A stretch of DNA of 64,000 bases from Sphingomonas mollis (GTDB lineage Bacteria > Pseudomonadota > Alphaproteobacteria > Sphingomonadales > Sphingomonadaceae). The notes beneath the pieces were generated by a model. The model had not been told where the DNA came from. It saw only the letters and a program-made list of their open reading frames with translations, and did not search any database. This document shows, piece by piece, positions 11,906 through 24,621 of the stretch; the stretch's first letter is position 1; the number at the start of each line of letters is the position of its first letter. The stretch spans positions 124,001 to 188,000 of the forward strand of contig NZ_JAELXS010000003.1 in NCBI RefSeq assembly GCF_016427505.1. Reading direction: 5' to 3'. Both the position numbers and the translations under genes were made by a program.

Positions 11906-12226
11906 ATGTCGAACTCCCGAAGCAATAATGGCGCCGTCGATGTGGATGGCGAGACGTACGACTGGCAACTTCAGCGTGAGCCGCAATGGTCGGATGACGA
12001 TGGCTGGAAAGGCATGATCGTTTCCCTTCGGCAGCGGGATACCCAACGCGAGGCGTTGCTGGAGTTCCCGCCGCCCAAACGCTTGTTGAAGGGGTTGCAG
12101 CGGGGGCGTCTTCAACTCGATGACGCAACGGTTTCCCGCGGGATACGAGCGGCACTGGCGGCGGGATGGGAGCCCATGTCGCGCGGCAAGCCGATGGTTT
12201 TTACGGTGGATGCCGAGGGCCGCTGA
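11906..12226 (+). CDS. Small conserved hypothetical protein
   Basis: A 106-aa hydrophilic protein without signal or membrane segments. I believe homologues with the same pattern occur across sphingomonads: DGETYDWQLQREPQWS, GMIVSLRQRDTQREALLEFPPP, RGIRAALAAGWEPMSRGKPM. The start ATG 11906 is chosen at the beginning of that pattern; the frame is open upstream to 11840. The sequence looks like a compact two-sheet domain. It follows tRNA-Gln and faces the GH43 gene tail to tail. Function unknown. Confidence 0.6.
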   Translation: MSNSRSNNGAVDVDGETYDWQLQREPQWSDDDGWKGMIVSLRQRDTQREALLEFPPPKRLLKGLQRGRLQLDDATVSRGIRAALAAGWEPMSRGKPMVFTVDAEGR

Positions 12227-12255
12227 AGCGTCCACCCGCTTCAGCGAATTATTCC

Positions 12256-13284
12256 TCAATCGGTGGAGGCACCGGCCAGGTCGCCATCCAGTTCGGTGGC
12301 TTCCCGCACCACCTCGATCCGATCGCCAGCGTCGTGCATCTGGTACAGCTTGCCGCGGGCGTTGTTGAAGGGGCGGTGCAGGACCATCATCAGTGTCCCG
12401 TCCAGTCGGCGGAACAACATACCGTGCCCGCTGTCGCCGCGGACCAGCGGCGGCAATTGCTCCCACGGTCCCTCGATCCCGCCACTCTTCGATCGCGCGA
12501 TACCCTGGACATAGCCCTGCTTGTCGTAACTGGACCACAGCATCAGCAGCACGCCCGTCCGCGTCCGGAATAGTTCGGGCCCGTCGGTGACGTAGATCGT
12601 ATCGCCTTCCTTCTGCAGCTTGCCATCCGCCCATTCGGCCTCGGACGCCTTGAACAACACCTTCGGCGGGCCGGCGGCGGCGAGGTCGTCGGTCAGCGGC
12701 AGCGCCTCGATCGTCCCGTCGCCGACCTGTACCCACTCATGGGCATAGACCATCCACGGCTTGCCCGCCGGATCGACATAGAGCGTCCCGTCCAGCGTCA
12801 TCTGCCCTTCATCGACCACCGGCGCGCCACCGCGCACCAGCCGGAAAGGCCCACCCAGCTGATCCGCCACCGCCAGGATCGTGCTGCGACGGACCGGCTG
12901 GCGTTTACCTTCGGCCGGCAGCCTGGCGTTATCGTTGTAAAAGGTCGCGAACAGATACCAGCGGTTCTTCCACCGGTGGACCTCCGGTGCCCAGCCACCG
13001 TCGTTCGCCCAAGTACCCGGCGGCAGCGTGAAGATCATGCGCGGTCTGGTCCAGTGTTTCAGGTCGCGGCTGGTGTAGGCCATGATCCCGAGCCTTCCGT
13101 CGCCCGTCATCCGTCGCTCGTTACGGGTGAACAGGTGGTAGGTCCCGGTTGCGCTATCCACGACGATCCAAGGATCGTGAAGCGGCATGTCCGGCATCAG
13201 CAGCGGCGCGGGCGCGATCGCGCGGGTGTCCCCCGGTGTCGACATGACCATCATCAGGGCCAGTGCGATCAATGGTCGAAACAT
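12256..13284 (-). CDS. Secreted glycoside hydrolase family 43 protein
   Basis: A 342-aa five-bladed beta-propeller enzyme of the GH43 type (arabinofuranosidase/xylosidase/arabinanase group). The start is ATG 13284 behind GAGAAGGAG, giving a signal peptide (MFRPLIALALMMVMSTPGDTRA). The triad is visible: catalytic Asp in PLHDPWIVVD, the pKa-tuning Asp in MTLDGTLYVD and the acid Glu in TDGPELFRT. DGGWAPEVHRWKNRWYLFATFY is the classic blade-2 motif. The gene stands alone; upstream on the same strand is a small exported protein 70 bp away. Its specificity is not predictable by eye. Confidence 0.85.
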   Translation of the reverse strand: MFRPLIALALMMVMSTPGDTRAIAPAPLLMPDMPLHDPWIVVDSATGTYHLFTRNERRMTGDGRLGIMAYTSRDLKHWTRPRMIFTLPPGTWANDGGWAPEVHRWKNRWYLFATFYNDNARLPAEGKRQPVRRSTILAVADQLGGPFRLVRGGAPVVDEGQMTLDGTLYVDPAGKPWMVYAHEWVQVGDGTIEALPLTDDLAAAGPPKVLFKASEAEWADGKLQKEGDTIYVTDGPELFRTRTGVLLMLWSSYDKQGYVQGIARSKSGGIEGPWEQLPPLVRGDSGHGMLFRRLDGTLMMVLHRPFNNARGKLYQMHDAGDRIEVVREATELDGDLAGASTD

Positions 13285-13354
13285 GGGTTCTCCTTCTCCC
13301 GCCCGTGGGTCGGCACCTTCGGCACCGCAGAATGAACATCTTGTTTGCTGATGA

Positions 13355-13894
13355 CTACGGCACCGAGAGTGGTCCCGGCAACGGTCGAGGAAACCGCGCG
13401 AACAGTGCCTCGGACAAGGCGGCTGCAACAGTGGCGGGCGCACCAGCCCGGGTTCCATCGACACGCGCCGTGGTCGCCGTGCCGGACCAGACTATTTGGC
13501 CATCGCTGCGGAGCGTGACGATCACGTCGAGGCGGGTCACGACGAGCCCGTGCAACTGACGTTTTCCCGACGGAAGGCTTAGGGACAGACCGGAACCCTG
13601 ATAATTCACACCGGGTGCCGACGCCGATCCATTGCCGGAGGACGTGACGACGCCGCGCGATGTCTGCGACACTTCCACCTTGGCGACGTAACGGCTGTGA
13701 CCCGTATCGGGTAGGGGGGCGAAACCGGTCTGAAGGACGGCATGGCTGACAGCACCCACGAACGTCGCCACCACCGGATCGGTCGCCGTCTGGGTACCGC
13801 CGGCCACGATGGTGATCGTGCCGGGTTTCGGGGCCGGCGCGTCCGATACCACCGGCATCAGGGTAACGGCTGTGGCCAGAAGGGCAGGGTGCAT
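13355..13894 (-). CDS. Exported protein of unknown function
   Basis: A 179-aa protein with a short signal-like N-terminus (MHPALLATAVTLMPVVSDA) behind AAAAGG. The mature part has alternating strands, for example SRYVAKVEVSQTSRGVV, RLDVIVTLRSDGQIVWSGTATT and a final helix VAAALSEALFARFPRPLPG. This layout resembles DUF4136-like outer-membrane-associated proteins, but I cannot confirm the family. There is no lipobox. It lies between pncB and the GH43 gene on the same strand. Confidence 0.6.
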   Translation of the reverse strand: MHPALLATAVTLMPVVSDAPAPKPGTITIVAGGTQTATDPVVATFVGAVSHAVLQTGFAPLPDTGHSRYVAKVEVSQTSRGVVTSSGNGSASAPGVNYQGSGLSLSLPSGKRQLHGLVVTRLDVIVTLRSDGQIVWSGTATTARVDGTRAGAPATVAAALSEALFARFPRPLPGPLSVP

Positions 13895-13951
13895 GCGAGG
13901 ACCTTTTCTGATTCAGTCGGCTGGCGGTATCGTTCGAACCGGTCTTCAGGG

Positions 13952-15256
13952 CTAGACCGTGACGGGCAGGGACGATCTACCTTCTTCGCCGAAGATGCGC
14001 AGATAGCGCGCGATTTCCGCAGGCTCGCCGGTCGCCTTGGCGGGATTGTCGGATAGCTTGACGGCGGGGCGGCCGTCGACCGTCACGACCTTGGCGACCA
14101 GCGAAATGGGCTCCAGCCCGCCGGTGGCATCAGGCGCGCAGCCGCGGAAGTCGTTGGTGAGATTGGTGCCCCAGCCGAAGCTCATTCGCACCCGACCGTG
14201 GAAGTGGCGATAGGTCGCCTCGATGGAATCCACGTCCATGCCGTCCGAAAAGATCAGCAGCTTGGTCGCCGGATCACGGCCATGCGCCTGCCACCAGCGG
14301 ATGATCTGCTCGCCGCCAACGATCGGTGGCGCGCTGTCGGGGCGAAAGCCTGTCCAGTCCGCGACCCAGTCAGGTGCCTGCGCCAGAAAGGACGCGGTGC
14401 CGAACGCATCTGGCAGAACGATCAGCAGGTTGCCGGCATAATGTCGCCGCCAGTCGTCGAGAACGCGATACGGGGCCGCGGCGACACCTTCGTCGCTGTC
14501 GGCCAGCGCGGCGAGCACCATCGGCAGTTCATGCGCATTGGTGCCGATCGCCTCAAGGTCGTTGTCCATCGCCAGCAGGACATTGGACGTGCCGATGAAA
14601 CGACTTCCCAATCCCTCCTTCAAGGCCTCGACGCACCAGCGTTGCCACAGGAAGCCATGGCGCCGACGCGTGCCGAAGTCGGAAATGACGAGATCGGGCA
14701 AGGCGCGCAATCGCTCCACCTTGTCCCAAAGCTTCGCCTTGGCGCGGGCATAGAGGACGTCGAGGGTGAAGCGGCCCATGTCCCGCGTAGCGGCGCGCGA
14801 GCGGAGTTCGTTGATGATCGTCAGCGCCGGGATTTCCCACATCGTCGTGTGCGCCCACGGTCCCGCAAAGCGAAGTTCAAACTGCCCCTCGACGCGACGC
14901 AGGTCATAGTCGGGCAGTTGGAAACCAGCGAGCCAGGCGATGAAATCGGGCTCGAAAATCCGTGCCTGTCCCGCAAAGCTGTTGCCCGCGAGCCAGATCA
15001 ACTCCTTCTTGGTGAAGCGCACCGTGCGCGCATGGTCGAGTTGGGCGCGTAACTCGCCCTCGTCGATGTCGTCGGCCAGGCGCACGGCCTTCGTCCGGTT
15101 GATAAGAGCGAAAGTCGCCTGCACATCCGGGTAGAGGTGCCGGATCATCTGCAGCATCAACAGCTTGTAGAAGTCCGTGTCCAGCAGGCTGCGGACGATC
15201 GGATCGAGGCGGAAACCGTGGTCGTAGGTGCGGGTCGCGATGTCGGTGACGGCCAT
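13952..15256 (-). CDS. pncB: Nicotinate phosphoribosyltransferase
   Basis: A 434-aa enzyme that converts nicotinate and PRPP to nicotinate mononucleotide in the NAD salvage (Preiss-Handler) pathway. Family marks are [15 protein letters not shown] at the N-terminus, [23 protein letters not shown], and [11 protein letters not shown], which contains the histidine phosphorylated during ATP-driven turnover. IFSDGMDVD and [11 protein letters not shown] form the phosphate-binding end of the barrel. It reads in the same direction as the five-gene operon upstream, 106 bp after the DedA stop, so could be a sixth member or separate. Confidence 0.95.
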
Positions 15257-15362
15257 GATGCTCCCGGTGCCGAACTGATGATCTCGCCATCAATGCACAA
15301 GATCGCGGGCGGCGTCCCTTCGTTTCACGAGGCGGCGCGGATCAGCATCGATGAGCGGCCAA

Positions 15363-15959
15363 TTACACCGCTTCTACGCGTTGCTTGCCGAACAGCTTCC
15401 ATCCAAGGAATCCGGCAACGAGCAGACCAACGACGACCCAGGTGAGATTTCCAAGCAGGCTCGCCACGGTCTGCACCTGATCGCTGAAGGCGCGACCGAG
15501 CGAGACGTAGATCAGCAGCCAGAGCAGCTCTCCGGCGACATCAAGCACGACGAACCACCGCCAGGGATATTCCGTCAGACCACTGGTGACGTTGATCCAG
15601 GGACCCAGCGGACCGATCAACCAGCGGCTGAAGAAAATGCCCCAGCCTGCCCATTTGCGCGAATACGCCTCGGCCTGTGCGACCTTGTCGGCGCCGCCAA
15701 TCCGCTTCGTCACCGCCGCTAGCAGAGGGCGCCCCCCGTATCGGCCGAAGGCGTAACCGATCTGGTCACCCAGCACGGCACCGGCTGCGCCCGACAGCAC
15801 GACAGGCCAGAAGTCGAGCTCACCCTGCGCGACGAATGATCCCATCGCGATCAGCGTCAGCGAACTTGGGAAGGGCATGCCCGCCGCCGCCAGCACCATC
15901 GCACCAAAGAGCGCGGGCAAGCCATAGGTCGTCAGCAATTCGAGAAGCTGCTCGGTCAC
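15363..15959 (-). CDS. DedA family membrane protein
   Basis: A 198-aa DedA/SNARE-associated (VTT-fold) membrane protein. It shows the family hallmarks FGAMVLAAAGMPFPSSLTLIAMG, GAVLGDQIGYAFGRYGGRPLL and FFSRWLIGPLGPWINVTSGL, with re-entrant and transmembrane segments. DedA members flip undecaprenyl phosphate or affect membrane lipid handling and drug or pH tolerance. It is the last gene of a five-gene minus-strand operon and overlaps the preceding gene by 4 bp. Confidence 0.9.
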   Translation of the reverse strand: MTEQLLELLTTYGLPALFGAMVLAAAGMPFPSSLTLIAMGSFVAQGELDFWPVVLSGAAGAVLGDQIGYAFGRYGGRPLLAAVTKRIGGADKVAQAEAYSRKWAGWGIFFSRWLIGPLGPWINVTSGLTEYPWRWFVVLDVAGELLWLLIYVSLGRAFSDQVQTVASLLGNLTWVVVGLLVAGFLGWKLFGKQRVEAV

Positions 15960-16333
15960 GATTTCGGCATTGCCGGCCGCGAGATATTCTCAGGCGGCGC
16001 GGGAGGCGGGTAAGGCGGCCTCGCATGGACGATGGCATAGGTCAGCCTTGCCTCGATCTCCGTCATCGATCGCCCGCTGTCGTGCGCGATACGGCCCAGC
16101 GGGCGTCGGTCGGGTTCCGGCGGCAAGCCCAATGCGCGGTGCAGGATGTGCGGAGGGACGTGGTAGGAATGCGCGACATAGCCGATCGTCATCCAGCGTT
16201 CGATCGGCTCGTCCCGGTGCGCATTCCAGTAGATCGCATCACCGACGGTACGCACCGCGTGATAGCCGGTGAATGCCAGCACGGCGACGAACAGCGCCAT
16301 TAACACGCGTCGCCACAATAGTTCCCGCGTCAT
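15956..16333 (-). CDS. Small membrane-anchored protein of unknown function
   Basis: A 125-aa protein with one N-terminal membrane helix (VLMALFVAVLAFTGYHAV) and a soluble domain: EPIERWMTIGYVAHSYHVPPHILHRALGL, followed by a proline-rich tail (PPYPPPAPPENISRP). The soluble stretch resembles a small helical DNA-binding-like or regulatory fold; I do not recognise it. The start ATG 16333 overlaps the permease stop by 4 bp, and its own stop overlaps the DedA start by 4 bp. Position suggests it works with the permease or DedA. Confidence 0.75.
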   Translation of the reverse strand: MTRELLWRRVLMALFVAVLAFTGYHAVRTVGDAIYWNAHRDEPIERWMTIGYVAHSYHVPPHILHRALGLPPEPDRRPLGRIAHDSGRSMTEIEARLTYAIVHARPPYPPPAPPENISRPAMPKS

Positions 16334-17580
16334 CCGAGGGCGATCCGTGCGCCGAGTGCGGCGATCAGCGCCAGCGGCATCGCCACCGCGCCAACCTTCA
16401 GGAACCGCCAGAAGCGGATATCCTCGCCCTCCCGCCGGATCGCCTGCAACCACAGGATCGTCGCCAGGCTGCCGGTGATGGACAGATTGGGGCCGAGATC
16501 GACGCCGATCAGCAGGCCGTCGACGACCAGTCGCGGCGGCTGAGCCTGTGCCACGGCGGTGCTGGCAACGAGGCCGGCGGGCAGATTGTTCATCAGGTTC
16601 GATGCGAAGGCCAGGATCGTTCCGGACACTGCCGATGCCTGTGCCGGATCGGCCGACGCGGCGCGGATCATCTGCGCGACCCAGCCGATCACGCCGGTCA
16701 GGTCCAGCGCCTCGACCAGCACGAACAGTCCGGCGACCAGCGGCAACACGCTCCACGAGATATCCCGCAGCAGCGTGACCGGCGACGACCGGGCGATCGC
16801 GCAAACCGCCAGCGTCGTGAAGATACCGGCGATCGCGGTCGGCAATCCCAGTTCGATATCGAGGGCGGACACGACCAGCAGTACGATCGCAGTGGCGACG
16901 ATCCCGACGAACGCAGCCTTGCCGCCCGCGGTCAGCGGCGTGCGCTCGACCTCGCTGATGCAGTTACCCGCCAGCCGCTTGCGCTCAAGCCAGCGCAGCA
17001 CGAGGAAGGTGACCACGATCGACGCCACCGACGGCAGCGCGAATGAAGCGAACCATTGGGCGAGCGGCGGCATCTTGCCACCGTACAGCACCAGATTGGC
17101 CGGATTGGAGATCGGCAACACGAAACTCGCCGCATTGGCGATCAGGGCGCACGCGAACAGCAGGGGCAGCGGATCGGCCTTGGCCTTCTTGGCCGCTGCA
17201 TAGACCGCCGGGGTCAGCACCACCGCGGTCGCGTCGTTCGACAGGAAGGTCGTGGTGACGATGCCGGTGACATAGACGAGCGCAAACAGTCGTGCCGTCG
17301 ATCCCTTCGCATGGATGGCGGCGGTGGCGGCGACCCAATCGAACAGCCCTTCCGCCCGCGCGACTTCACTGAGCAGCATCATGCCGATCAGGAACAGATA
17401 GACGTCCAGCCCCTTGGCCACCGCGCCGACCGCCGCGGGGAAAGGCATCAGGCCGAACAGCAACAGCAGCGCCGCGCCCGCCACCGCCCAGATCGCTTCC
17501 GGCCATCGGAACGGGCGCGCGATCACTGCCGCGGTGGAGGCGGCACAGATTCCCCAGGTCGCACCCGTCGCAAGGATCAC
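16330..17580 (-). CDS. ArsB/SLC13-like anion permease
   Basis: A 416-aa integral membrane protein with about 10-12 helices in the ion-transporter superfamily that holds ArsB and SLC13/DASS carriers. FLSNDATAVVLTPAVYAAAKKAKADP is followed by FVLPISNPANLVLYGGKMP; the second half has SNLMNNLPAGLVAS and GVDLGPNLSITGSLATILW, the paired motifs of the family. The start is GTG 17580 inside a GTGA overlap with the phosphoesterase stop; the frame upstream is not coding. It is often annotated as an arsenic transporter, but no arsR, arsC or acr3 is in the window, so the substrate is open. Confidence 0.85.
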   Translation of the reverse strand: MILATGATWGICAASTAAVIARPFRWPEAIWAVAGAALLLLFGLMPFPAAVGAVAKGLDVYLFLIGMMLLSEVARAEGLFDWVAATAAIHAKGSTARLFALVYVTGIVTTTFLSNDATAVVLTPAVYAAAKKAKADPLPLLFACALIANAASFVLPISNPANLVLYGGKMPPLAQWFASFALPSVASIVVTFLVLRWLERKRLAGNCISEVERTPLTAGGKAAFVGIVATAIVLLVVSALDIELGLPTAIAGIFTTLAVCAIARSSPVTLLRDISWSVLPLVAGLFVLVEALDLTGVIGWVAQMIRAASADPAQASAVSGTILAFASNLMNNLPAGLVASTAVAQAQPPRLVVDGLLIGVDLGPNLSITGSLATILWLQAIRREGEDIRFWRFLKVGAVAMPLALIAALGARIALG

Positions 17581-18704
17581 CAATGCTTCCCGTTCTTGTT
17601 GGGGCCAAGTTGCGTGCCGGCGATGCCGTGTTTCGGCCACGCACCGATACTGTGGATATCGCGACCCGGCGCGACGGGAATGCCACGCCGGGGAATATCC
17701 TTCTCGTCGCGCACCAGTACCTCGATGACGTCGCGATCGGTGCCGGCGCTGGCGGCAATGCGGTGAAGCCCGGCGCCGAGGACGATACGGAGCGACCAAT
17801 AGGTAGTGCCGGACATGGACGTCATCGGTTGGGCGACGCCATCGTCGATCGACAGCATGACGGGTTGTGCCGTGTTCCCGAACAGCTTGGCGACGATCTC
17901 GACCTCGCCCGGACGTGGGACCTGCGTTGCATCGGCGGGTCGCGTCACCAGCCGGACGTCGGCCGGCGCGATGATCTGGACGAATGGCCAGTCGCCGCCC
18001 GTCTCCTTGAACCGCCAGCTCGGCACGCGACCGTGGATCGTCGTGATCGAAAAACCGGGTTTGCCCCCACCCTCCTCGATCTCGCCGGTCGAACGGGTAG
18101 CGCCATAGATGACGCGGCCGTCGTTGAGCAATTCGCTGTAATGGGTATGCCCGGTATCGACGAAGGCAACGCGCGCGTCGGCGAAAATGCGGGCGATATC
18201 CTCGCCGTCCGCTGCGAGATCGCCGGGATAGGCGTGCATGAACACGACGGGCGTTTGTCCCTCCGCCTCTGCTCGTGCCAGTTCCTCGAGCAGTCGATTG
18301 CGGTGGTGCGTCGTCAGCCGGAAATCGGGTCCGCCGGCGCCTGCGGAAATGATATCGAGGAAGATGCAGCGATGGCCGGCGATGACTTCCGCCTCCGGCC
18401 GGTTCGCCTCGGGAAAGGCGGCGTCGTAATGGGCAAGGTTGCCCAATTCGAAATCGTGATCGCCCGGAATGACCCGGTAGGGCAGGCGCAGCGGAGCGAG
18501 GGTTTCGGTGATGACGCGATATTGTTCGACCGTCGCGTGATTGGCGTTGTCGCCGGGCAGAAACACAAAATCCGCCGCGTCACCGATCTGATCGTTGATC
18601 TCGACGATGATCGCCGCAAGCCGGTCACGGCTTTGCCAGCCATTCGCTTCGTCCATATGCAGATCGCCGATATGGACCCAGCTCAGGCAGGGAACACCGG
18701 TCAC
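17577..18704 (-). CDS. Cytoplasmic metallophosphoesterase with C-terminal beta domain
   Basis: A 375-aa calcineurin-like phosphoesterase. All metal motifs are present in the first 210 residues: GDLHMDE, LPGDNANH, IPGDHDFE, FMHAYPGD and DTGHTHYSE. There is no signal peptide, so it should act in the cytoplasm. From about residue 225 a beta-rich Ig-like domain follows (VEIVAKLFGNTAQPVMLSIDDG; YWSLRIVLGAGLHRI). It overlaps the MFS gene and the permease gene by 4 bp each. Operon context suggests it hydrolyses a phosphate ester handled by the transporters; that is inference only. Confidence 0.88.
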   Translation of the reverse strand: MTGVPCLSWVHIGDLHMDEANGWQSRDRLAAIIVEINDQIGDAADFVFLPGDNANHATVEQYRVITETLAPLRLPYRVIPGDHDFELGNLAHYDAAFPEANRPEAEVIAGHRCIFLDIISAGAGGPDFRLTTHHRNRLLEELARAEAEGQTPVVFMHAYPGDLAADGEDIARIFADARVAFVDTGHTHYSELLNDGRVIYGATRSTGEIEEGGGKPGFSITTIHGRVPSWRFKETGGDWPFVQIIAPADVRLVTRPADATQVPRPGEVEIVAKLFGNTAQPVMLSIDDGVAQPMTSMSGTTYWSLRIVLGAGLHRIAASAGTDRDVIEVLVRDEKDIPRRGIPVAPGRDIHSIGAWPKHGIAGTQLGPNKNGKHW

Positions 18705-19954
18705 TTATGCGTCTCCGGCATGGCGGTGAGATAGAGGACGAAACCGGCGGCCGCGATGCCTGCAAGCGTCAGGAAGCTGGCGCTGTATCCCGCCCAGACG
18801 ATGATCGATCCCGCCAGCGTCGCCGACAGGGCCGCACCCAACCCGAATACGCTCGATACCACGCCCTGGCTGACGTTGAACCGACCCGATCCCTTGGTCA
18901 GGTCGGCGACGATTACGGGGAACAACGCGCCGAATATTCCCGCGCCGATACCATCCAGTGCCTGCACACCGACCAGCCACCATGGATCGTTGGATACCGT
19001 GTAGAGGGCACCACGCGCGGCCAGGAAGCCGAACGCGACGAGAAAAATCGGCTTGGTCCCCCAACGCTCGGTGTTCCGCCCGACCACGATCGCGACCGGC
19101 ACCATCACCAGCTGCGCCGCGACGATGCAGGCGGCGGTCAGCGAAGTCGCCTTGTCGGTGCCCACGGTCCGGCCCAGCAACTGGCTGACCGACGTCAGCA
19201 TTGCCGCATTGGCCAGATGAAACGTGAAGGTCGCGGCAGCGAAGATCATCAGCGGCCGGTTTTCGATCAGCGTCTTCCAGCCGCTCGGCTCCTCGCATCC
19301 CTCCTCTGGTTCGCAGTCGAGACCGCGCGCGACGGCATTGTCGATGTCGTCGTTGTTCAGCCTTGCCGATACGATGACGCTGGCGACGGTCAGCACCGCC
19401 ATCAACCAGAAGACCACGACGGGACCGAACGACCAGGCGAGCACGCCGGCGAGCGCAGCGGATACCGCATTGCCGGCATGGTTGAACGCCTCGTTACGGC
19501 CGACCCGTTTGGCGAACAGCTTCGGCCCGACCAGACCCAGCGTGATGGCCGAGATCGCCGGCGCGAACACCGCCCCCGCCGCCGCGGCGATCGATTGGGT
19601 GATCGTCACCATCGTGAAGCCCGATACGATCGGTAGCGAGAGGCTGCTCAACGTGACCAGCAACGCGGCAGCGATGACGATCCGTGGCTTGTTCTTCGCC
19701 CGGTCGATCAGGCCGCCGGCGGGCGTCTGCGACAGCAGGCCGACGATACCGGCGATAGTGAGCACAAGCCCGACGGTCGCCTCGTTCCAGCCATGCGACG
19801 GGCCGCGAACGACCAGCAGATAGATGGCAAGGTAGGGTCCGAGCCCATCGCGCACGTCCGCCAGGAAGAAGTTGAGCGCATCAAGCGTGCCGGTGGGCGT
19901 GTGGCCTTTGGGCGACCCCGTCGTTTCAGGCATGGCTGCCGCAGATGCCATCAT
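18701..19954 (-). CDS. MFS transporter heading a five-gene operon
   Basis: A 417-aa major facilitator with 12 predicted helices and a central loop (residues 200-230) with DCEPEEGCEEPSGW, an unusual acidic, cysteine-bearing linker between the halves. DVRDGLGPYLAIYLL, GLLSQTPAGGLIDRAKNKPR (the loop 2-3 motif) and DGIGAGIFGALFPVIVADLTKGSGRFN are typical of the MFS group found near metallophosphoesterases. The start is one of ATG 19954 or ATG 19951, behind GGAGA. It is coupled to the phosphoesterase by ATGA. Two palindromes upstream at 19986-20035 may be the operator of the operon. Confidence 0.88.
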   Translation of the reverse strand: MMASAAAMPETTGSPKGHTPTGTLDALNFFLADVRDGLGPYLAIYLLVVRGPSHGWNEATVGLVLTIAGIVGLLSQTPAGGLIDRAKNKPRIVIAAALLVTLSSLSLPIVSGFTMVTITQSIAAAAGAVFAPAISAITLGLVGPKLFAKRVGRNEAFNHAGNAVSAALAGVLAWSFGPVVVFWLMAVLTVASVIVSARLNNDDIDNAVARGLDCEPEEGCEEPSGWKTLIENRPLMIFAAATFTFHLANAAMLTSVSQLLGRTVGTDKATSLTAACIVAAQLVMVPVAIVVGRNTERWGTKPIFLVAFGFLAARGALYTVSNDPWWLVGVQALDGIGAGIFGALFPVIVADLTKGSGRFNVSQGVVSSVFGLGAALSATLAGSIIVWAGYSASFLTLAGIAAAGFVLYLTAMPETHK

Positions 19955-19985
19955 GTGTCTCCAGAATTCGCGCGAAGAAGTGCGA

Positions 19986-20035
19986 AGCGCTCGGTAGAGC
20001 GCTCCGACGAAAGCAGACTGAACGACGCCGTTCAG
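19986..20035. promoter_or_regulatory. Two perfect palindromes upstream of the MFS operon
   Basis: AGCGCTC-GGTA-GAGCGCT (19986-20003) and CTGAACG-ACGC-CGTTCAG (20018-20035) are separated by 14 bp, 32-81 bp upstream of the MFS start on the other strand. The second also sits just upstream of a TATAAT on the plus strand. They could be regulator sites or leader hairpins; the sequence alone does not decide. Confidence 0.4.
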
Positions 20036-20043
20036 GTTCGGTT

Positions 20044-20300
20044 TATAATGGGCTGAGGTCGCAGTGAATGACTGCGCGGTATCGCTTCACCGAGCACATC
20101 AGTTCCGGATCGGAATGAAAATAGCTCCGAAGCGGCATAAGAATTGTACCGGCCAACGCGGGTATCGCGTTGGTGACACAGCCAGCGTTGCCAAGGCGGA
20201 AGGAATGAAAGCGTTTAAGCGTGGGAAAGAGGGGGGGGCTTGGAAGTACCATATCGTGCTGCAATCCACTGCGCTCAAAGCCACGCCGAACCTCGCAGTC
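20044..20300 (+). ncRNA. Hairpin-rich intergenic region, possible small RNA
   Basis: No convincing protein gene lies in 19955-20303. A consensus -10 TATAAT (20044-20049) is followed by a chain of perfect stems: CGCAGT/ACTGCG (20058-20074), TTCCG/CGGAA (20103-20115) and CCAACGCG/CGCGTTGG (20153-20173). The stretch is less GC-rich than its neighbours and has no terminator I can define; a G8 run lies near 20230. A good -35 is missing. Treat the start, end and strand as a hypothesis. Confidence 0.25.
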
Positions 20301-20303
20301 CGC

Positions 20304-20642
20304 TTAGCGCTGCTTCTTCGTCGTGGTGGCGGTGAAGTCGGGGTCCTTGTTCGCCACCCAATCCACGAATTTGCGCACGGCGGGGTTGGCCAGCAGGGCC
20401 TCCATGTCCATCGCGTGGCGCTGCAGTTCGGAATTGGTGAAGTTCGCGGTCAGCGTCTGTTGGCAGATGGGATGCATGGGAACCACATCGCGACCGCCCC
20501 GGCTCTTGGGAACGGGATGATGCCAGACGATGGTCTTGCCCGTCGGCCGGCCGCAGAGCCAGCATGAGATGATTTCCGCCGGGGCTTCGTCGTCGCGCTG
20601 CACATCCTCATAGGGACCATGTTTCGAATGTTTGCGGGCCAT
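20304..20642 (-). CDS. HNH endonuclease-like zinc protein
   Basis: A 112-aa protein carrying an HNH-type zinc finger: CWLCGRPTG, then WHHPVPKSRGGRD (the HH of the beta-beta-alpha-metal fold), VVPMHPICQQTLTANFTNSEL. The usual last histidine (ICHxT) is replaced by glutamine (ICQQT), which may weaken catalysis. The C-terminus is a helical extension with a basic end. Such stand-alone small HNH proteins are common in sphingomonads and not linked here to phage genes or restriction genes. Divergent from the paoA-like gene. Confidence 0.75.
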   Translation of the reverse strand: MARKHSKHGPYEDVQRDDEAPAEIISCWLCGRPTGKTIVWHHPVPKSRGGRDVVPMHPICQQTLTANFTNSELQRHAMDMEALLANPAVRKFVDWVANKDPDFTATTTKKQR

Positions 20643-20734
20643 GACGTTACCTTAATCCCTCTGTCGCCGCTTCATTAGCGGGGTGGAGCCGGCCGCGCCA
20701 TTCGCCGCTTGGCAGATCGGGCACGACCCGAGTA

Positions 20735-20746
20735 TACCGGTCGGTA
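20735..20746. promoter_or_regulatory. Candidate TetR-type operator upstream of the aldehyde oxidase operon
   Basis: TACCG-GT-CGGTA (20735-20746) is a short palindrome 56-67 bp upstream of the first subunit gene, of the ACCGnnCGGT kind often bound by TetR/AcrR regulators. It is followed by an AT-rich TTAAATAAA stretch that may form the promoter. No TetR gene is nearby. Confidence 0.35.
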
Positions 20747-20801
20747 GTTAAATAAAGGCCCGGCGGACCATCCGATATCGCCGGCGTATCTGGAGATGAC
20801 G

Positions 20802-21308
20802 ATGCCGATACTCGTCAACGGTTCCGCGGTCGCGCTGCCCAATGATCCCCGCGTTTCTCTGCTCGACCTGTTGCGGGAGGGTTTGCATCTTTCCGGCACG
20901 AAGAAGGGCTGCAATCAGGGCGCATGTGGCGCCTGCACGGTGCTGGTAGACGGCGAGCGCATCCTTTCCTGCCTGGCACTGGCGGTGCAGTACGAGGGGC
21001 GCTCCGTCACCACGATCGAGGGGCTGAGCGACGGCGACGGACTGCATCCGTTGCAGCAGGCGTTCATCGATCATGACGGCTTCCAGTGCGGTTATTGCAC
21101 GCCCGGCCAAATCTGTTCCGCGATCGGCATGGCGGCCGAGGCGAAGCGCGGCGTGCCGAGCCACGTCAGCGCGGATCTCTCCACCGATGTCAGGTTGACA
21201 CGCGAGGAGCTACAGGAGCGGATGAGCGGCAATCTATGTCGATGCGGCGCGCATAACGGGATCATCGACGCGATCCGCGATACGGTTGCCGCGGAGCTGG
21301 CGGCATGA
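20802..21308 (+). CDS. Molybdenum hydroxylase [2Fe-2S] subunit (PaoA-like)
   Basis: A 168-aa iron-sulfur subunit of an aldehyde oxidase/xanthine dehydrogenase family enzyme. The plant-type [2Fe-2S] site is CNQGACGACTVL with a distal Cys in RILSCLALAV; the second cluster is bound by CGYCTPGQIC and LCRCG. The ATG at 20802 is 6 nt after GGAG, better placed than the one at 20796. E. coli PaoA carries a Tat leader before this domain; here the protein begins directly with the ferredoxin fold (MPILVNGSAVAL), so the complex should be cytoplasmic. Its stop overlaps the next gene by 4 bp. Confidence 0.93.
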   Translation: MPILVNGSAVALPNDPRVSLLDLLREGLHLSGTKKGCNQGACGACTVLVDGERILSCLALAVQYEGRSVTTIEGLSDGDGLHPLQQAFIDHDGFQCGYCTPGQICSAIGMAAEAKRGVPSHVSADLSTDVRLTREELQERMSGNLCRCGAHNGIIDAIRDTVAAELAA

Positions 21309-22291
21309 CCCCGTTCTCCTATGCACGCGCGAACAACGCCGCGGAAGCGCTGCAACTGGGACGGGGCGGCGCGGCAAACTATCTGGGCGGCGGCACCAAT
21401 CTGGTCGACCTGATGCGCGAGACGATCGCGAAGCCGGACAGGCTGGTCGACGTCACCGGATTGTCGGACGCGATCACCGACACAGCGGACGACGGTCTGT
21501 TGATCGGGGCGGCGGTGCGCAACACCGCGCTGGCCGAGCACCCGGCGGTGCGGACGCGTTATCCGATGCTGTCGCGCGCGATCCTGGCGGGTGCGTCGGC
21601 GCAGATTCGCAACATGGCGACGGTTGGCGGCAACCTGCTCCAGCGGACACGATGCACCTATTTCTACGACACGGATGGATCGCGGTGTAACAAGCGCGTC
21701 CCCGGTTCGGGTTGCGACGCGGTCGGCGGGTTCACCCGAATCCATGCGGTCCTCGGCGCGTCGCCGGCGTGCGTGGCGACGCATCCGTCGGACATGTGCG
21801 TGGCGCTCGCGGCGCTGGATGCGGTCGTGCATGTCGAGGGTGCGGGCGGCGCGCGTACGCTGTCGTTCGGCGATCTGCACCGTCTTCCGGGCGATCGTCC
21901 CGAACTCGATACAGTTCTAGAGGTCGGCGAATTGATTACCGCGATCGAGCTGCCACCGCTGCCGTTCGCGGCATCCTCGACCTATCGAAAGGTGCGGGAC
22001 CGGGCGAGTTATGCCTTTGCGCTGATCTCGGTCGCTGCGGCGATCGATGTGGTCGATGGCGAGATCAGGGACGTGCGCCTCGCGCTGGGCGGGGTAGCGC
22101 ACAAGCCGTGGCGTGCGACGACGGCGGAGGCACTGTTGCGCGGACGGCCGGCGACCGAGGCTGCGTTCCGCGACGCCGCCATCGCCGAACTCGCCGATGC
22201 CAGGCCGTTGCGCGACAATGGTTTCAAGATCGAACTCGCCAAACGCACGATCGTCGCCGTTCTTGGCGACCTGTCGGGAGCCACCGCATGA
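21305..22291 (+). CDS. Molybdenum hydroxylase FAD/[4Fe-4S] subunit (PaoB-like)
   Basis: A 328-aa FAD-binding subunit. The FAD motif is YLGGGTNLVDLMRE and the second one MATVGGNLLQRTRC. The loop with CTYFYD, RCNKR, SGCDA and SPACVATHPSDM matches the extra [4Fe-4S] cluster insertion of the E. coli periplasmic aldehyde oxidase PaoB, which ordinary xanthine dehydrogenase FAD subunits lack. The C-terminal CO-dehydrogenase-type domain is complete. It overlaps both neighbours by 4 bp. Confidence 0.93.
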   Translation: MTPFSYARANNAAEALQLGRGGAANYLGGGTNLVDLMRETIAKPDRLVDVTGLSDAITDTADDGLLIGAAVRNTALAEHPAVRTRYPMLSRAILAGASAQIRNMATVGGNLLQRTRCTYFYDTDGSRCNKRVPGSGCDAVGGFTRIHAVLGASPACVATHPSDMCVALAALDAVVHVEGAGGARTLSFGDLHRLPGDRPELDTVLEVGELITAIELPPLPFAASSTYRKVRDRASYAFALISVAAAIDVVDGEIRDVRLALGGVAHKPWRATTAEALLRGRPATEAAFRDAAIAELADARPLRDNGFKIELAKRTIVAVLGDLSGATA

Positions 22292-24621
22292 GCATCCTCG
22301 ATACCGCCAGGGAAGCCGCACAGGGTCTGGTGCAGGGCGCGATGGCAAAGTTGGTGCCGCTGGCGCCGGACAGCTGGATTCCGGGTGGCGTCCCCGATCC
22401 GTTGATCGCGCGGAAGCATGGGTTGATCGGCACGTCGGTGTCGCGGCTCGACGGAGCGCTGAAGGTGAAGGGCGCGGCACGGTTCGCGGCCGAATTCGCG
22501 CTCGACGACATGGTCTATGCCGCGCTTGCCTTCGCGACGATCCCGCGCGGACGGATCGCGACGCTAGACGTGGCGGCAGCCGAGGCCGCGTCCGGCGTCG
22601 TGGTGGTGATGACGCACCGGAATGCGCCGCGTATGAAGCAACCAGCCGTGTTCGGATCGTCACCGACCGCCGCCGGTCCGGCCGACCTGCCGATCATGCA
22701 GGACGATCGTATTCATTGGAACGGGCAGCCGATCGCGGTCGTGCTGGCCGGGACTCAGGAACAGGCGGACCATGCCGTTTCTCTGATCGTCACGACCTAC
22801 GACGTCGAGGAGTCGGTCACGTCATTTGCTGCGGCCAAGGAGAAAGGCGCGGCCCCGGCGTCCTTCATGGGGCAGCCGTTATTGAACGAGATCGGCGATG
22901 CCGATGCGATGCTGGCGGCGGCACCGCACAAGGTCGATCAGGTCTATCGTACGCCCCGGCACAATCACAACGCGATCGAACCGCATGCGGCGACGATCGC
23001 CTGGGTCGGTGGCGATCTGGTCGTCCACGACGCCAGCCAGCTCGTCTCGATGGAAGCGGCGACGATCGCCGGCGTGTTCGACCTGAAGGTTGAGCAGGTT
23101 CGCGTGACCTCTCCCTATGTCGGCGGTGGCTTCGGAGGCAAATGCCTGTGGGATCACCAGATACTGGGCGCGGCGGCGGCGAAGCTGGCGGGGCGCCCGG
23201 TGCGGATCGTGCTGACCCGCGAAGGGGTCTATCGCGGCGTCGGCGGGCGGACGTTGACCGAACAGCGGGTTGCCATCGGTGCGGCCGCCGGCGGACATTT
23301 CCAAGCGCTGATCCATGCCGGCACGACAGCGACGACGCCGCACAACAATATGCCCGAACCGTTTATTCTCGGCACGCGGGCGGGTTATGCGGCGGATAGC
23401 TTCAAGCTGTCGGTCGATGTCGTGCGGATGAACATGCTCGCCAACACGTTCATGCGCGCGCCCGGGGAGTCGGTCGGTACGTTCGCGCTGGAGTCGGCGA
23501 TCGACGAACTGGCGGCCGATCTGGGTATCGACCCAATCGAACTGCGCATTCGTAACGAGCCGGAGGTGGATCCAACCTCCGGTCTGCCCTTCTCGTCGCG
23601 GCATATCGTCGAGGCATGGCGCGCAGGCGCAGCGAAATTCGGCTGGGACAAGCGTGGACTGCCGGGTGCGCGGCGGGAGGGTGAGTGGCTGATTGGCATG
23701 GGCTGTGCGACCGGCACCTATCCCTATTACCGGATGCCGGGCGCGGCGGCGCGGATCACGCTGGATCGGGCCGGCACCGCACTGGTCGAGGTCGCCGCGC
23801 ACGAAATGGGCATGGGGACGTCGACGACGACGACGATGGTCGCCGCCGAACGGCTCGGATTGCCGCTGGAGGCAGTCGAGGTCCGCTATGGCGATTCGAT
23901 CATTCCCGGCGCGATCCTGGCGGGGGGATCGCAACAGACGGCCGCGATCGGTGCCGCGGTGATCGCGGCACATAACGCGCTCGTCGCGGAACTACTGAAG
24001 CTGGCGGGCAATGACTCGCCGCTGGCGGGGCTATCACCCGACGAGGTCGGCAGCGAGGATGGTGGGCTCGCCAAGCTGGACGATCCGGCACGACGCGAAA
24101 GCTATGCCTCTATCCTCCACCGGGCGCAGCGCGATCATGTCAGCGTATCGGCGGAAGGATCGCCACCGCTGGAACTGATGCATTGGTCGATGCACTCGCA
24201 CAGTGCGATCTTCTGCGAGGCGCGCGTTAACGCCGTAACGCGCGAGGTCCGCGTCAGCCGCTTCCTCGGCTCGTTCGATTGCGGCCGCATCCTCAACCCG
24301 AAGACCGCGCGCAGTCAGTTCCGGGGCGGTATGATCATGGGCCTGGGCCTCGCGTTGATGGAGGAGACCGAATTTGACGAGCGCAACGGCCGGATCATGA
24401 ATCCCAGCCTCGCCGAATATCACGTGCCGGTGCATCTCGACGTGCCCGAGATTGATGTGATCTGGACCGATATCGCCGATCCACATACGCCGATGGGCGC
24501 ACACGGGGTCGGCGAAATCGGCATCACCGGTGTCGCGGCGGCCGTCGCGAACGCTGTCTACAACGCGACCGGCACCCGCGTCCGCGACCTGCCGATCACG
24601 CTGGACAAGTTGCTGGTGTAG
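22288..24621 (+). CDS. Molybdenum hydroxylase large molybdopterin subunit (PaoC-like)
   Basis: A 777-aa catalytic subunit, expected to bind molybdopterin cytosine dinucleotide and oxidise aldehydes to acids. It has the family's KVKGAARFAAEF entry, RVTSPYVGGGFGGK, TFMRAPGESVGTFALESAIDELA, GGSQQTAAIGAA and the catalytic glutamate in GAHGVGEIGITG near the C-terminus. The length agrees with PaoC (about 730). The start is ATG 22288, in a 4-bp overlap. A PaoD/XdhC-type maturation factor is not in the window, so the enzyme must rely on one elsewhere. Confidence 0.93.
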   Translation: MSILDTAREAAQGLVQGAMAKLVPLAPDSWIPGGVPDPLIARKHGLIGTSVSRLDGALKVKGAARFAAEFALDDMVYAALAFATIPRGRIATLDVAAAEAASGVVVVMTHRNAPRMKQPAVFGSSPTAAGPADLPIMQDDRIHWNGQPIAVVLAGTQEQADHAVSLIVTTYDVEESVTSFAAAKEKGAAPASFMGQPLLNEIGDADAMLAAAPHKVDQVYRTPRHNHNAIEPHAATIAWVGGDLVVHDASQLVSMEAATIAGVFDLKVEQVRVTSPYVGGGFGGKCLWDHQILGAAAAKLAGRPVRIVLTREGVYRGVGGRTLTEQRVAIGAAAGGHFQALIHAGTTATTPHNNMPEPFILGTRAGYAADSFKLSVDVVRMNMLANTFMRAPGESVGTFALESAIDELAADLGIDPIELRIRNEPEVDPTSGLPFSSRHIVEAWRAGAAKFGWDKRGLPGARREGEWLIGMGCATGTYPYYRMPGAAARITLDRAGTALVEVAAHEMGMGTSTTTTMVAAERLGLPLEAVEVRYGDSIIPGAILAGGSQQTAAIGAAVIAAHNALVAELLKLAGNDSPLAGLSPDEVGSEDGGLAKLDDPARRESYASILHRAQRDHVSVSAEGSPPLELMHWSMHSHSAIFCEARVNAVTREVRVSRFLGSFDCGRILNPKTARSQFRGGMIMGLGLALMEETEFDERNGRIMNPSLAEYHVPVHLDVPEIDVIWTDIADPHTPMGAHGVGEIGITGVAAAVANAVYNATGTRVRDLPITLDKLLV

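Follow-up and report, generated by a model that had tools for sequence, protein, structure and literature searches.

A recurrent transporter-metallophosphoesterase module in Sphingomonas mollis, probably mislabelled as arsenic transport, and its possible role in hydrolysis and export

Five consecutive overlapping genes, at positions 15363-19954 of a 64-kb stretch of Sphingomonas mollis DNA (the window, to which all gene coordinates refer), raise the question of whether they form one pathway and whether that pathway handles arsenic. They encode a major facilitator superfamily (MFS) transporter, a metallophosphoesterase (MPE), an ArsB-like permease (PERM) of the ion transporter (IT) superfamily, a 125-aa protein and a DedA membrane protein, and the initial annotation regarded them as a single five-gene unit. 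Our comparison revealed that the locus is made of two joined modules, MFS-MPE-PERM and the 125-aa protein with DedA, and that the first is a genuine recurrent unit across lineages. We tentatively propose that the locus is one form of a mobile and modular system for hydrolysis and export, and the label of arsenic transport on this module is probably wrong.

Linkage was counted by running gene profiles on 93 MPE loci, of which 14 were left out because the contig stops less than 4 kb from MPE; the remaining 79 “uncut” loci have at least 4 kb on either side of MPE. Loci L022-L031, L124 and L125, from genomes fetched twice, were removed from the linkage, junction and alignment counts. MFS was near 69 of the uncut loci, PERM near 70 and both near 65, and a YdcZ-type drug/metabolite transporter (DMT) was near 20; all three transporters were missing at three loci, every one from Aureimonas. 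The gene orders observed include MFS-MPE-PERM, PERM-MFS-MPE, MPE-MFS-PERM-DMT, MPE-PERM-DMT-MFS and DMT-MPE-PERM, plus divergent forms. When the neighbours of 56 loci were clustered, with open-frame shadows of module genes disregarded, no other gene came near the spread of the trio. A sigma-54 regulator cluster of mixed families was found in 13 loci, and clusters in 7 or 6 loci, named partly by eye, include secreted OB-fold-like, PAS-domain, LysR regulator, oxidoreductase and ABC ATPase proteins. Secreted-looking proteins also lie beside the module in hosts other than Sphingomonas (L016 4646-5966, L014 1436-2725, L068 10259-11098, L105 7958-8752 and L109 168-965), and the L016 protein, the one tested for this, has weak DUF5666 or OB-fold matches.

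By contrast, the 125-aa protein and DedA were each near only 9 of the 79 uncut loci, and the pair stands without the trio on Paracoccus and Jannaschia plasmids. The 125-aa protein was found in 3 of 61 related genomes, each time with the operon. On an MPE tree of 69 rows, from which close copies and short rows were left out, the full five-gene loci form a single clade (SH-aLRT 89); L066, a contig-cut locus from a different part of the tree, carries the pair a short distance downstream of the module. The proposed five-gene unit thus held for the linkage of the trio and failed for the membership of the 125-aa/DedA pair. Scattering of the genes in relatives, which would speak against a unit, was observed in part: in Aureimonas L102, L107 and L108, MPE and the permease are separated; at the Aureimonas permease loci examined (L208-L210), MFS adjoins the permease.

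MPE and PERM also tend to occur in the same genomes. MPE was present in 11 of the 61 relatives and the PERM subfamily in 18, with all 11 MPE genomes among them; the subfamily boundary is clear, since hits at E<=1e-20 fall at either 62-100% or <=32% identity with a gap between. The hypergeometric probability of this co-occurrence, with kinship ignored, is 7.6e-8 over the 61 genomes and 3.7e-5 over 37 genomes of the same genus. At 17 loci MPE had no PERM in the stretch examined, and among 11 genomes checked, 10 (one of them the same genome as G022) carry PERM elsewhere at 53-77% identity, the only exception being a Rhodanobacter metagenome-assembled genome. Similarly, 16 PERM loci have no MPE next to them, and MFS adjoins PERM in 13 of these, namely in 5 of 7 loci from genomes without MPE and in 8 of 9 where MPE sits elsewhere. 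Because of these co-occurrence counts and the presence of MFS beside MPE-less PERM loci, MFS and PERM seem to form the core, and MPE is seldom found in a genome without PERM.

The identity of the MFS protein is more fluid than its presence. In close relatives, the MFS slot is occupied by MFS_B, a type about 36% identical to the MFS_A of the window; compared with L037/L039, the window shares 84-85% identity in MPE and 90% in PERM, and just 36% in the MFS at the same position. The MFS type changes six times on the MPE tree, with at least five changes forced by well-supported branches. These forced changes, together with the identity difference, suggest that the slot must be filled even though the type of its occupant swaps. 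The odd linker DCEPEEGCEEPSGW reported in the window MFS is real, and both of its Cys residues are kept in all 14 rows viewed of 26 MFS_A relatives and in none of the 14 rows viewed of 52 MFS_B relatives. No PDB sequence matched this MFS at E<=0.01. The DMT partner in L016 matches PF04657 (111.9 bits), a family described as a putative exporter. In a Methylobacterium-like genus (see below), the DMT is 308-309 aa long (L127 5867-6796, L129 10448-11377 and L131 10523-11449), twice the usual YdcZ length, which suggests a tandem fusion; L128 has two separate DMT hits.

The five genes, their coordinates and a 4-bp overlap at every junction (Table 1) were borne out by the open reading frame (ORF) positions and the junction letters, which read GTGA, GTGA, ATGA and GTGA in gene order. 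Among relatives, many of them close kin, the overlap-giving start codon was found in 48 of 55 rows for MFS>MPE and 39 of 60 for MPE>PERM, and in only 1 of 20 for PERM>DMT and 0 of 9 for PERM>MFS. As the overlap recurs at certain junctions only, overlaps alone are no proof of the tight stoichiometric coupling that had been read from them, and the reading as a five-gene stoichiometric operon was rejected on these junction counts and the linkage counts over 79 loci. The operon is flanked by a 2Fe-2S oxidoreductase subunit gene (window 20796-21308), and the same gene is found close to the module of the S. faeni group (L088-L091, L093, L094 and L097), which has another arrangement. Neither a riboswitch nor another structured RNA was found at gathering score in eight loci or at E<=1 in window 12000-24000. 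A role in anti-phage defence was also considered and rejected, the sole match being one partial hit of 15.6 bits.

Table 1. Genes of the Sphingomonas mollis locus, in gene order.
Feature	Position in window	Strand	Remarks
MFS transporter, type MFS_A	18701..19954	minus	417 aa; MFS_1 137 bits (Pfam)
Metallophosphoesterase (MPE)	17577..18704	minus	375 aa; Metallophos 40.5 bits (Pfam); predicted GpdQ/Rv0805 fold with C-terminal beta domain
ArsB-like IT-superfamily permease (PERM)	16330..17580	minus	416 aa; CitMHS 137.4 bits, ArsB PF02040 93.8 bits
125-aa protein	15956..16333	minus	no Pfam/NCBIfam match at E<=0.01; accessory module 2
DedA/VTT-domain membrane protein	15363..15959	minus	198 aa; VTT domain 64.7 bits; accessory module 2

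The MPE, which is 90% identical to that of Sphingomonas sp. Leaf339, belongs to the calcineurin-like superfamily (PF00149, gathering score 21.5 bits; Table 1). The beta-rich C-terminal domain described from its sequence is seen in a confident AlphaFold2 model (mean predicted local distance difference test score, pLDDT, 90.3), in which the tail at residues 367-375 is the only segment of at least three residues under 50. This GPNKNG tail is near-invariant among 93 relatives (GPN in 93, Asn371 in 91, Gly372 in 93 and Trp375 in 85), and such a conserved yet apparently disordered segment would be a natural candidate for docking. Rather than all five metal motifs, as was initially stated, the enzyme has four canonical ones, and its motif III reads GDHD instead of GNH[D/E]; GDHD is present in 92 of the 93 relatives, with one gapped, and the other motifs are conserved. 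Seven other metallophosphoesterases are encoded in the same genome, and the four caught by the motif pattern all have GNHD or GNHE. As the MPE has no hydrophobic segment, it is probably cytoplasmic.

With regard to catalysis, transport direction, substrate and regulation, we infer the following scheme, which is favoured over the alternatives considered below. The most stable pair would be the MFS and the ArsB-like secondary transporter, joined by MPE in many lineages, by a YdcZ-type DMT in some and by the DedA pair in this locus. A toxic or waste intracellular compound with a phosphodiester bond would be cleaved by the cytoplasmic, dinuclear-metal MPE; a small product, either a neutral polyhydroxy species or a small anion fitting an ArsB-type pocket, would be expelled via PERM, and the remainder of the molecule via the MFS or DMT. 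The export direction is suggested by the MFS, whose four best NCBIfam matches are drug, H+-antiport, sugar-efflux and tetracycline-efflux models (all far under cut-off), by the ArsB pocket kept in PERM and by the putative exporter family of the DMT. The module is probably turned on upon an outside signal by an adjacent sigma-54 two-component system in some Burkholderiaceae: a histidine kinase and a sigma-54 regulator adjoin the module in a Caballeronia pair and a Paraburkholderia plasmid (L014, L015 and L016). The pattern TGGCAC-N5-TTGCW was sought in 16 upstream regions, and in L014 (two start regions), L015, L016 and L019 a sigma-54-like site with at most one mismatch precedes the first gene of the module; the sites in L106 and L111 have two mismatches. 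In the background, 70 of 4000 random 300-bp windows, real sites included, reach at most one mismatch.

Several observations weigh against this scheme. IT-superfamily and MFS proteins import too, and a phosphate cotransporter and a lactate transporter are among the weaker NCBIfam matches of the window MFS. Since the MFS-PERM pair is also seen where the genome lacks MPE, transport does not require hydrolysis; the change to GDHD could also reduce the predicted activity of the enzyme. As for regulation, half of the 16 upstream regions have no usable site at up to two mismatches, including those of the window, Xenophilus L068 and Methylobacterium-like L129, the latter two of which carry a kinase-regulator pair without a good site. 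The one-mismatch site of L109 falls inside a called ORF and was not counted, and L019 has a site and no two-component genes in its 13-kb stretch.

A doubtful though less remote alternative is scavenging, in which the transporters import phosphodiesters or their products (e.g. glycerophosphodiesters from plant or bacterial lipids), MPE frees a usable alcohol and a phosphate monoester, and a by-product leaves by exchange or expulsion through the second transporter. The closest solved folds are indeed the glycerophosphodiesterase GpdQ (Z 24.9, 20% identity) and Rv0805, and neighbours in the 56 loci, named by eye, include a sugar-type ABC ATPase (6), a Gfo/Idh-like oxidoreductase (7) and a short-chain dehydrogenase/reductase (6). 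Many hosts also look plant-associated by name, with 11 distinct “Leaf” and no “Root” strains among the best 80 of 170 titles, a count without a denominator that is suggestive only. However, three transporter types that combine in any order and swap are more usual for efflux, and catabolic neighbours are each seen in at most 7 of the 56 loci. In agreement with the initial annotation, which had held a place of the permease and phosphoesterase inside characterised arsenic or glycerophosphodiester families to be evidence against its proposal, no such placement was seen (the phosphoesterase has about 20% identity to GpdQ and 34.9 bits against a cut-off of 400 for SpdA).

It is unlikely that MPE is a regulatory cyclic-nucleotide phosphodiesterase merely travelling with transporter genes with which it shares no pathway. 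Weak similarity to SpdA and CpdA (21.6 bits for the latter, both far under cut-offs) and the presence of Rv0805 among the closest folds would fit such a role. The MPE/PERM co-occurrence and the relinking in many orders, however, argue for a shared task, and GDHD replaces part of the class III cyclic-nucleotide phosphodiesterase signature, D-(X)n-GD-(X)n-GNH[E/D]-(X)n-H-(X)n-GHXH, as given in excerpts of PMC4222275 and PMC8366450, so that the protein does not carry this signature.

Slightly less likely again is arsenite or antimonite efflux, with PERM as a divergent ArsB and with MFS and MPE handling organic or phosphorylated arsenicals. The permease is indeed called an “arsenic transporter” in annotated plasmid loci, as had been anticipated, and it passes the broad Pfam ArsB model PF02040 (cut-off 22.2 bits), with CitMHS scoring higher (Table 1). 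Aligned over residues 33-415 to the solved ArsB of L. ferriphilum (PDB 10tp), it keeps the equivalents of all the metalloid-pocket residues, N111, D112, N158, N337, S380 and A382, which include As(OH)3 contacts in the excerpted text of PMC13381914. In PERM the first five of these are numbered N115, D116, N159, N332 and S371, and they are conserved in 74-75 of 75 relatives (one row is gapped at two positions); the equivalent of Asp370 is also kept. Furthermore, 9 of 11 MPE genomes, including that of the window, have no Acr3 match, and PERM could therefore be a main pump there. On the other hand, PERM misses all three NCBIfam ArsB cut-offs (147.1/457, 124.7/760 and 121.6/415 bits), and the Asp148/Lys374 pair of ArsB is replaced by N149/N365, with Asn-Asn in 75 of 75 relatives. 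This pair is implicated in proton coupling, and according to the same excerpts D148N and K374M impair E. coli ArsB (PMC13381914). All six plasmid ArsB controls retain the Asp/Lys pair, and their loci carry arsR in five cases (with arsC too in four) and arsA in the sixth. Since Asn-Asn is found throughout the PERM relatives and Asp-Lys throughout the controls, PERM appears to be a subfamily that stands beside ArsB and is distinct from it, and not a standard arsenite pump.

The gene context points the same way. No arsR, arsC, arsA/D or arsH was named within 6 kb of the module in six annotated plasmid loci (from PLSDB gene tables, which are incomplete), and no ars gene stands out among the neighbour clusters of the 56 loci. 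In the genome of the window, Acr3 gave no match and PERM is the one ArsB-like hit at E<=1e-20; the claim that no arsenic gene is present is thus upheld for Acr3, arsR, arsC and arsH not having been searched genome-wide. Two observations on individual PERM genes may be added: in L089 (10037-11411) the gene is split over two overlapping ORFs, likely by a frameshift, and another plasmid of Caballeronia sp. SBC2 carries a further gene of the PERM subfamily (52% identity; L174 3908-5242), in unannotated surroundings.

That DedA recycles a lipid carrier within a single five-gene pathway, as the initial annotation supposed, is very improbable, since a weak match to the UptA equivalog model (58.7/250 bits), the 4-bp overlaps kept at both junctions of the 125-aa/DedA pair in 9 of 9 relatives and the downstream pair of L066 are set against its rarity beside MPE, the three genomes of 61 with the 125-aa protein and the pairs that stand alone on Rhodobacterales plasmids. 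DedA itself passes the VTT domain model (64.7 vs 33.9 bits). The 125-aa protein has one N-terminal hydrophobic helix and a small helical domain in its model (mean pLDDT 80.7, predicted template modelling score 0.52), the best PDB match of which is the N-terminal region of YtfE (Z 5.1, root-mean-square deviation (rmsd) 3.0, 62 aligned); naming it after YtfE was dropped, as the match is too weak.

The module is widely though unevenly distributed. Its hosts include Sphingomonas, Comamonadaceae, Burkholderiaceae, Acetobacteraceae, a Methylobacterium-like genus and a Spirosoma plasmid, the last with the order DMT-MPE-PERM. In a sample of 385 genomes from the class, 3 have an MPE relative (E<=1e-40), as do 9 of 398 from the phylum (E<=1e-30), with the genome of the window included in both counts; in one family (centre G666, Caballeronia dw_276), relatives were found in 11 of 150 genomes, two of them partial. 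In genus g242, MPE matches occur in 62 of 79 genomes (E<=1e-30), of which 30 cover the whole model (E<=1e-110), 8 are nearly whole in longer forms and 24 are partial, 22 of these beginning after residue 70. These partial matches and longer forms suggest that the genus also contains divergent MPE variants. Five of its loci were examined, with PERM and DMT in all five and MFS_A beside MPE in three. We infer that g242 is Methylobacterium-like because the gene for formaldehyde-activating enzyme (fae) was found in all five members tested and not in G000, G393 or G761.

The Comamonadaceae are nested among Sphingomonas on the MPE tree, which is consistent with horizontal transfer. A contig titled Arthrobacter sp. 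TPD3018 (L067), whose MFS-MPE pair nests (98) with Sphingomonas aquatilis L072, probably comes from a mislabelled or contaminated assembly. In L010/L012 (G017:C11:42288-43405), the MPE match is in two pieces, which suggests a broken gene; the same genome retains an MFS_A-PERM pair on another contig (L203).

For the hydrolysis-then-export scheme, a more specific version can be envisaged, although we consider it rather unlikely. The GPN.NG tail of MPE, disordered in the model of the lone protein, might dock the enzyme on PERM or MFS and feed the product straight into an elevator-type transporter with a rewired ArsB-like proton-coupling pair, and this detoxification route would be widespread among plant-surface bacteria, hidden under the “arsenic transporter” label. 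Among the matches listed in the open-access literature, no paper describes the module, and the matched excerpts of PMC3926354, PMC7908345 and PMC6111035 mention a metallophosphoesterase or ArsB only as one of several genes. The module spreads between lineages, and its enzyme matches in most genomes of one genus. Identifying its substrate would probably point to a compound with which many plant-associated bacteria have to cope.

In comparison with known systems, PERM resembles ArsB (10tp; E. coli and S. aureus ars operons) in its alignment, pocket and Asp370, and differs in having Asn at both Asp148 and Lys374 and in the lack of arsR/arsC partners seen beside it. Among the best 50 of 2280 plasmid records, ArsB-type hits reach at most 28% identity, compared with 52-73% for two members of the PERM subfamily, one 38-residue fragment at 68% being set aside. 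The DMT partner belongs with the YdcZ-type exporters (PF04657) and is not part of the window operon. MPE shares its predicted catalytic fold and motifs I, II, IV and V with GpdQ (3d03; rmsd 2.3, 223 aligned) and Rv0805 (3ib7; Z 23.8, rmsd 4.5, 237 aligned), and is set apart from both by an identity of only about 20%, the GDHD motif III, the C-terminal beta domain with its conserved tail and the linkage to transporters. From its best NCBIfam match, the 2',3'-cyclic nucleotide phosphodiesterase SpdA, it differs in lacking the GNH[E/D] signature described in the excerpt of PMC4222275. Asn/Asn in PERM and GDHD in MPE thus provide simple residue signatures that separate the module from the ArsB controls and the class III phosphodiesterases.

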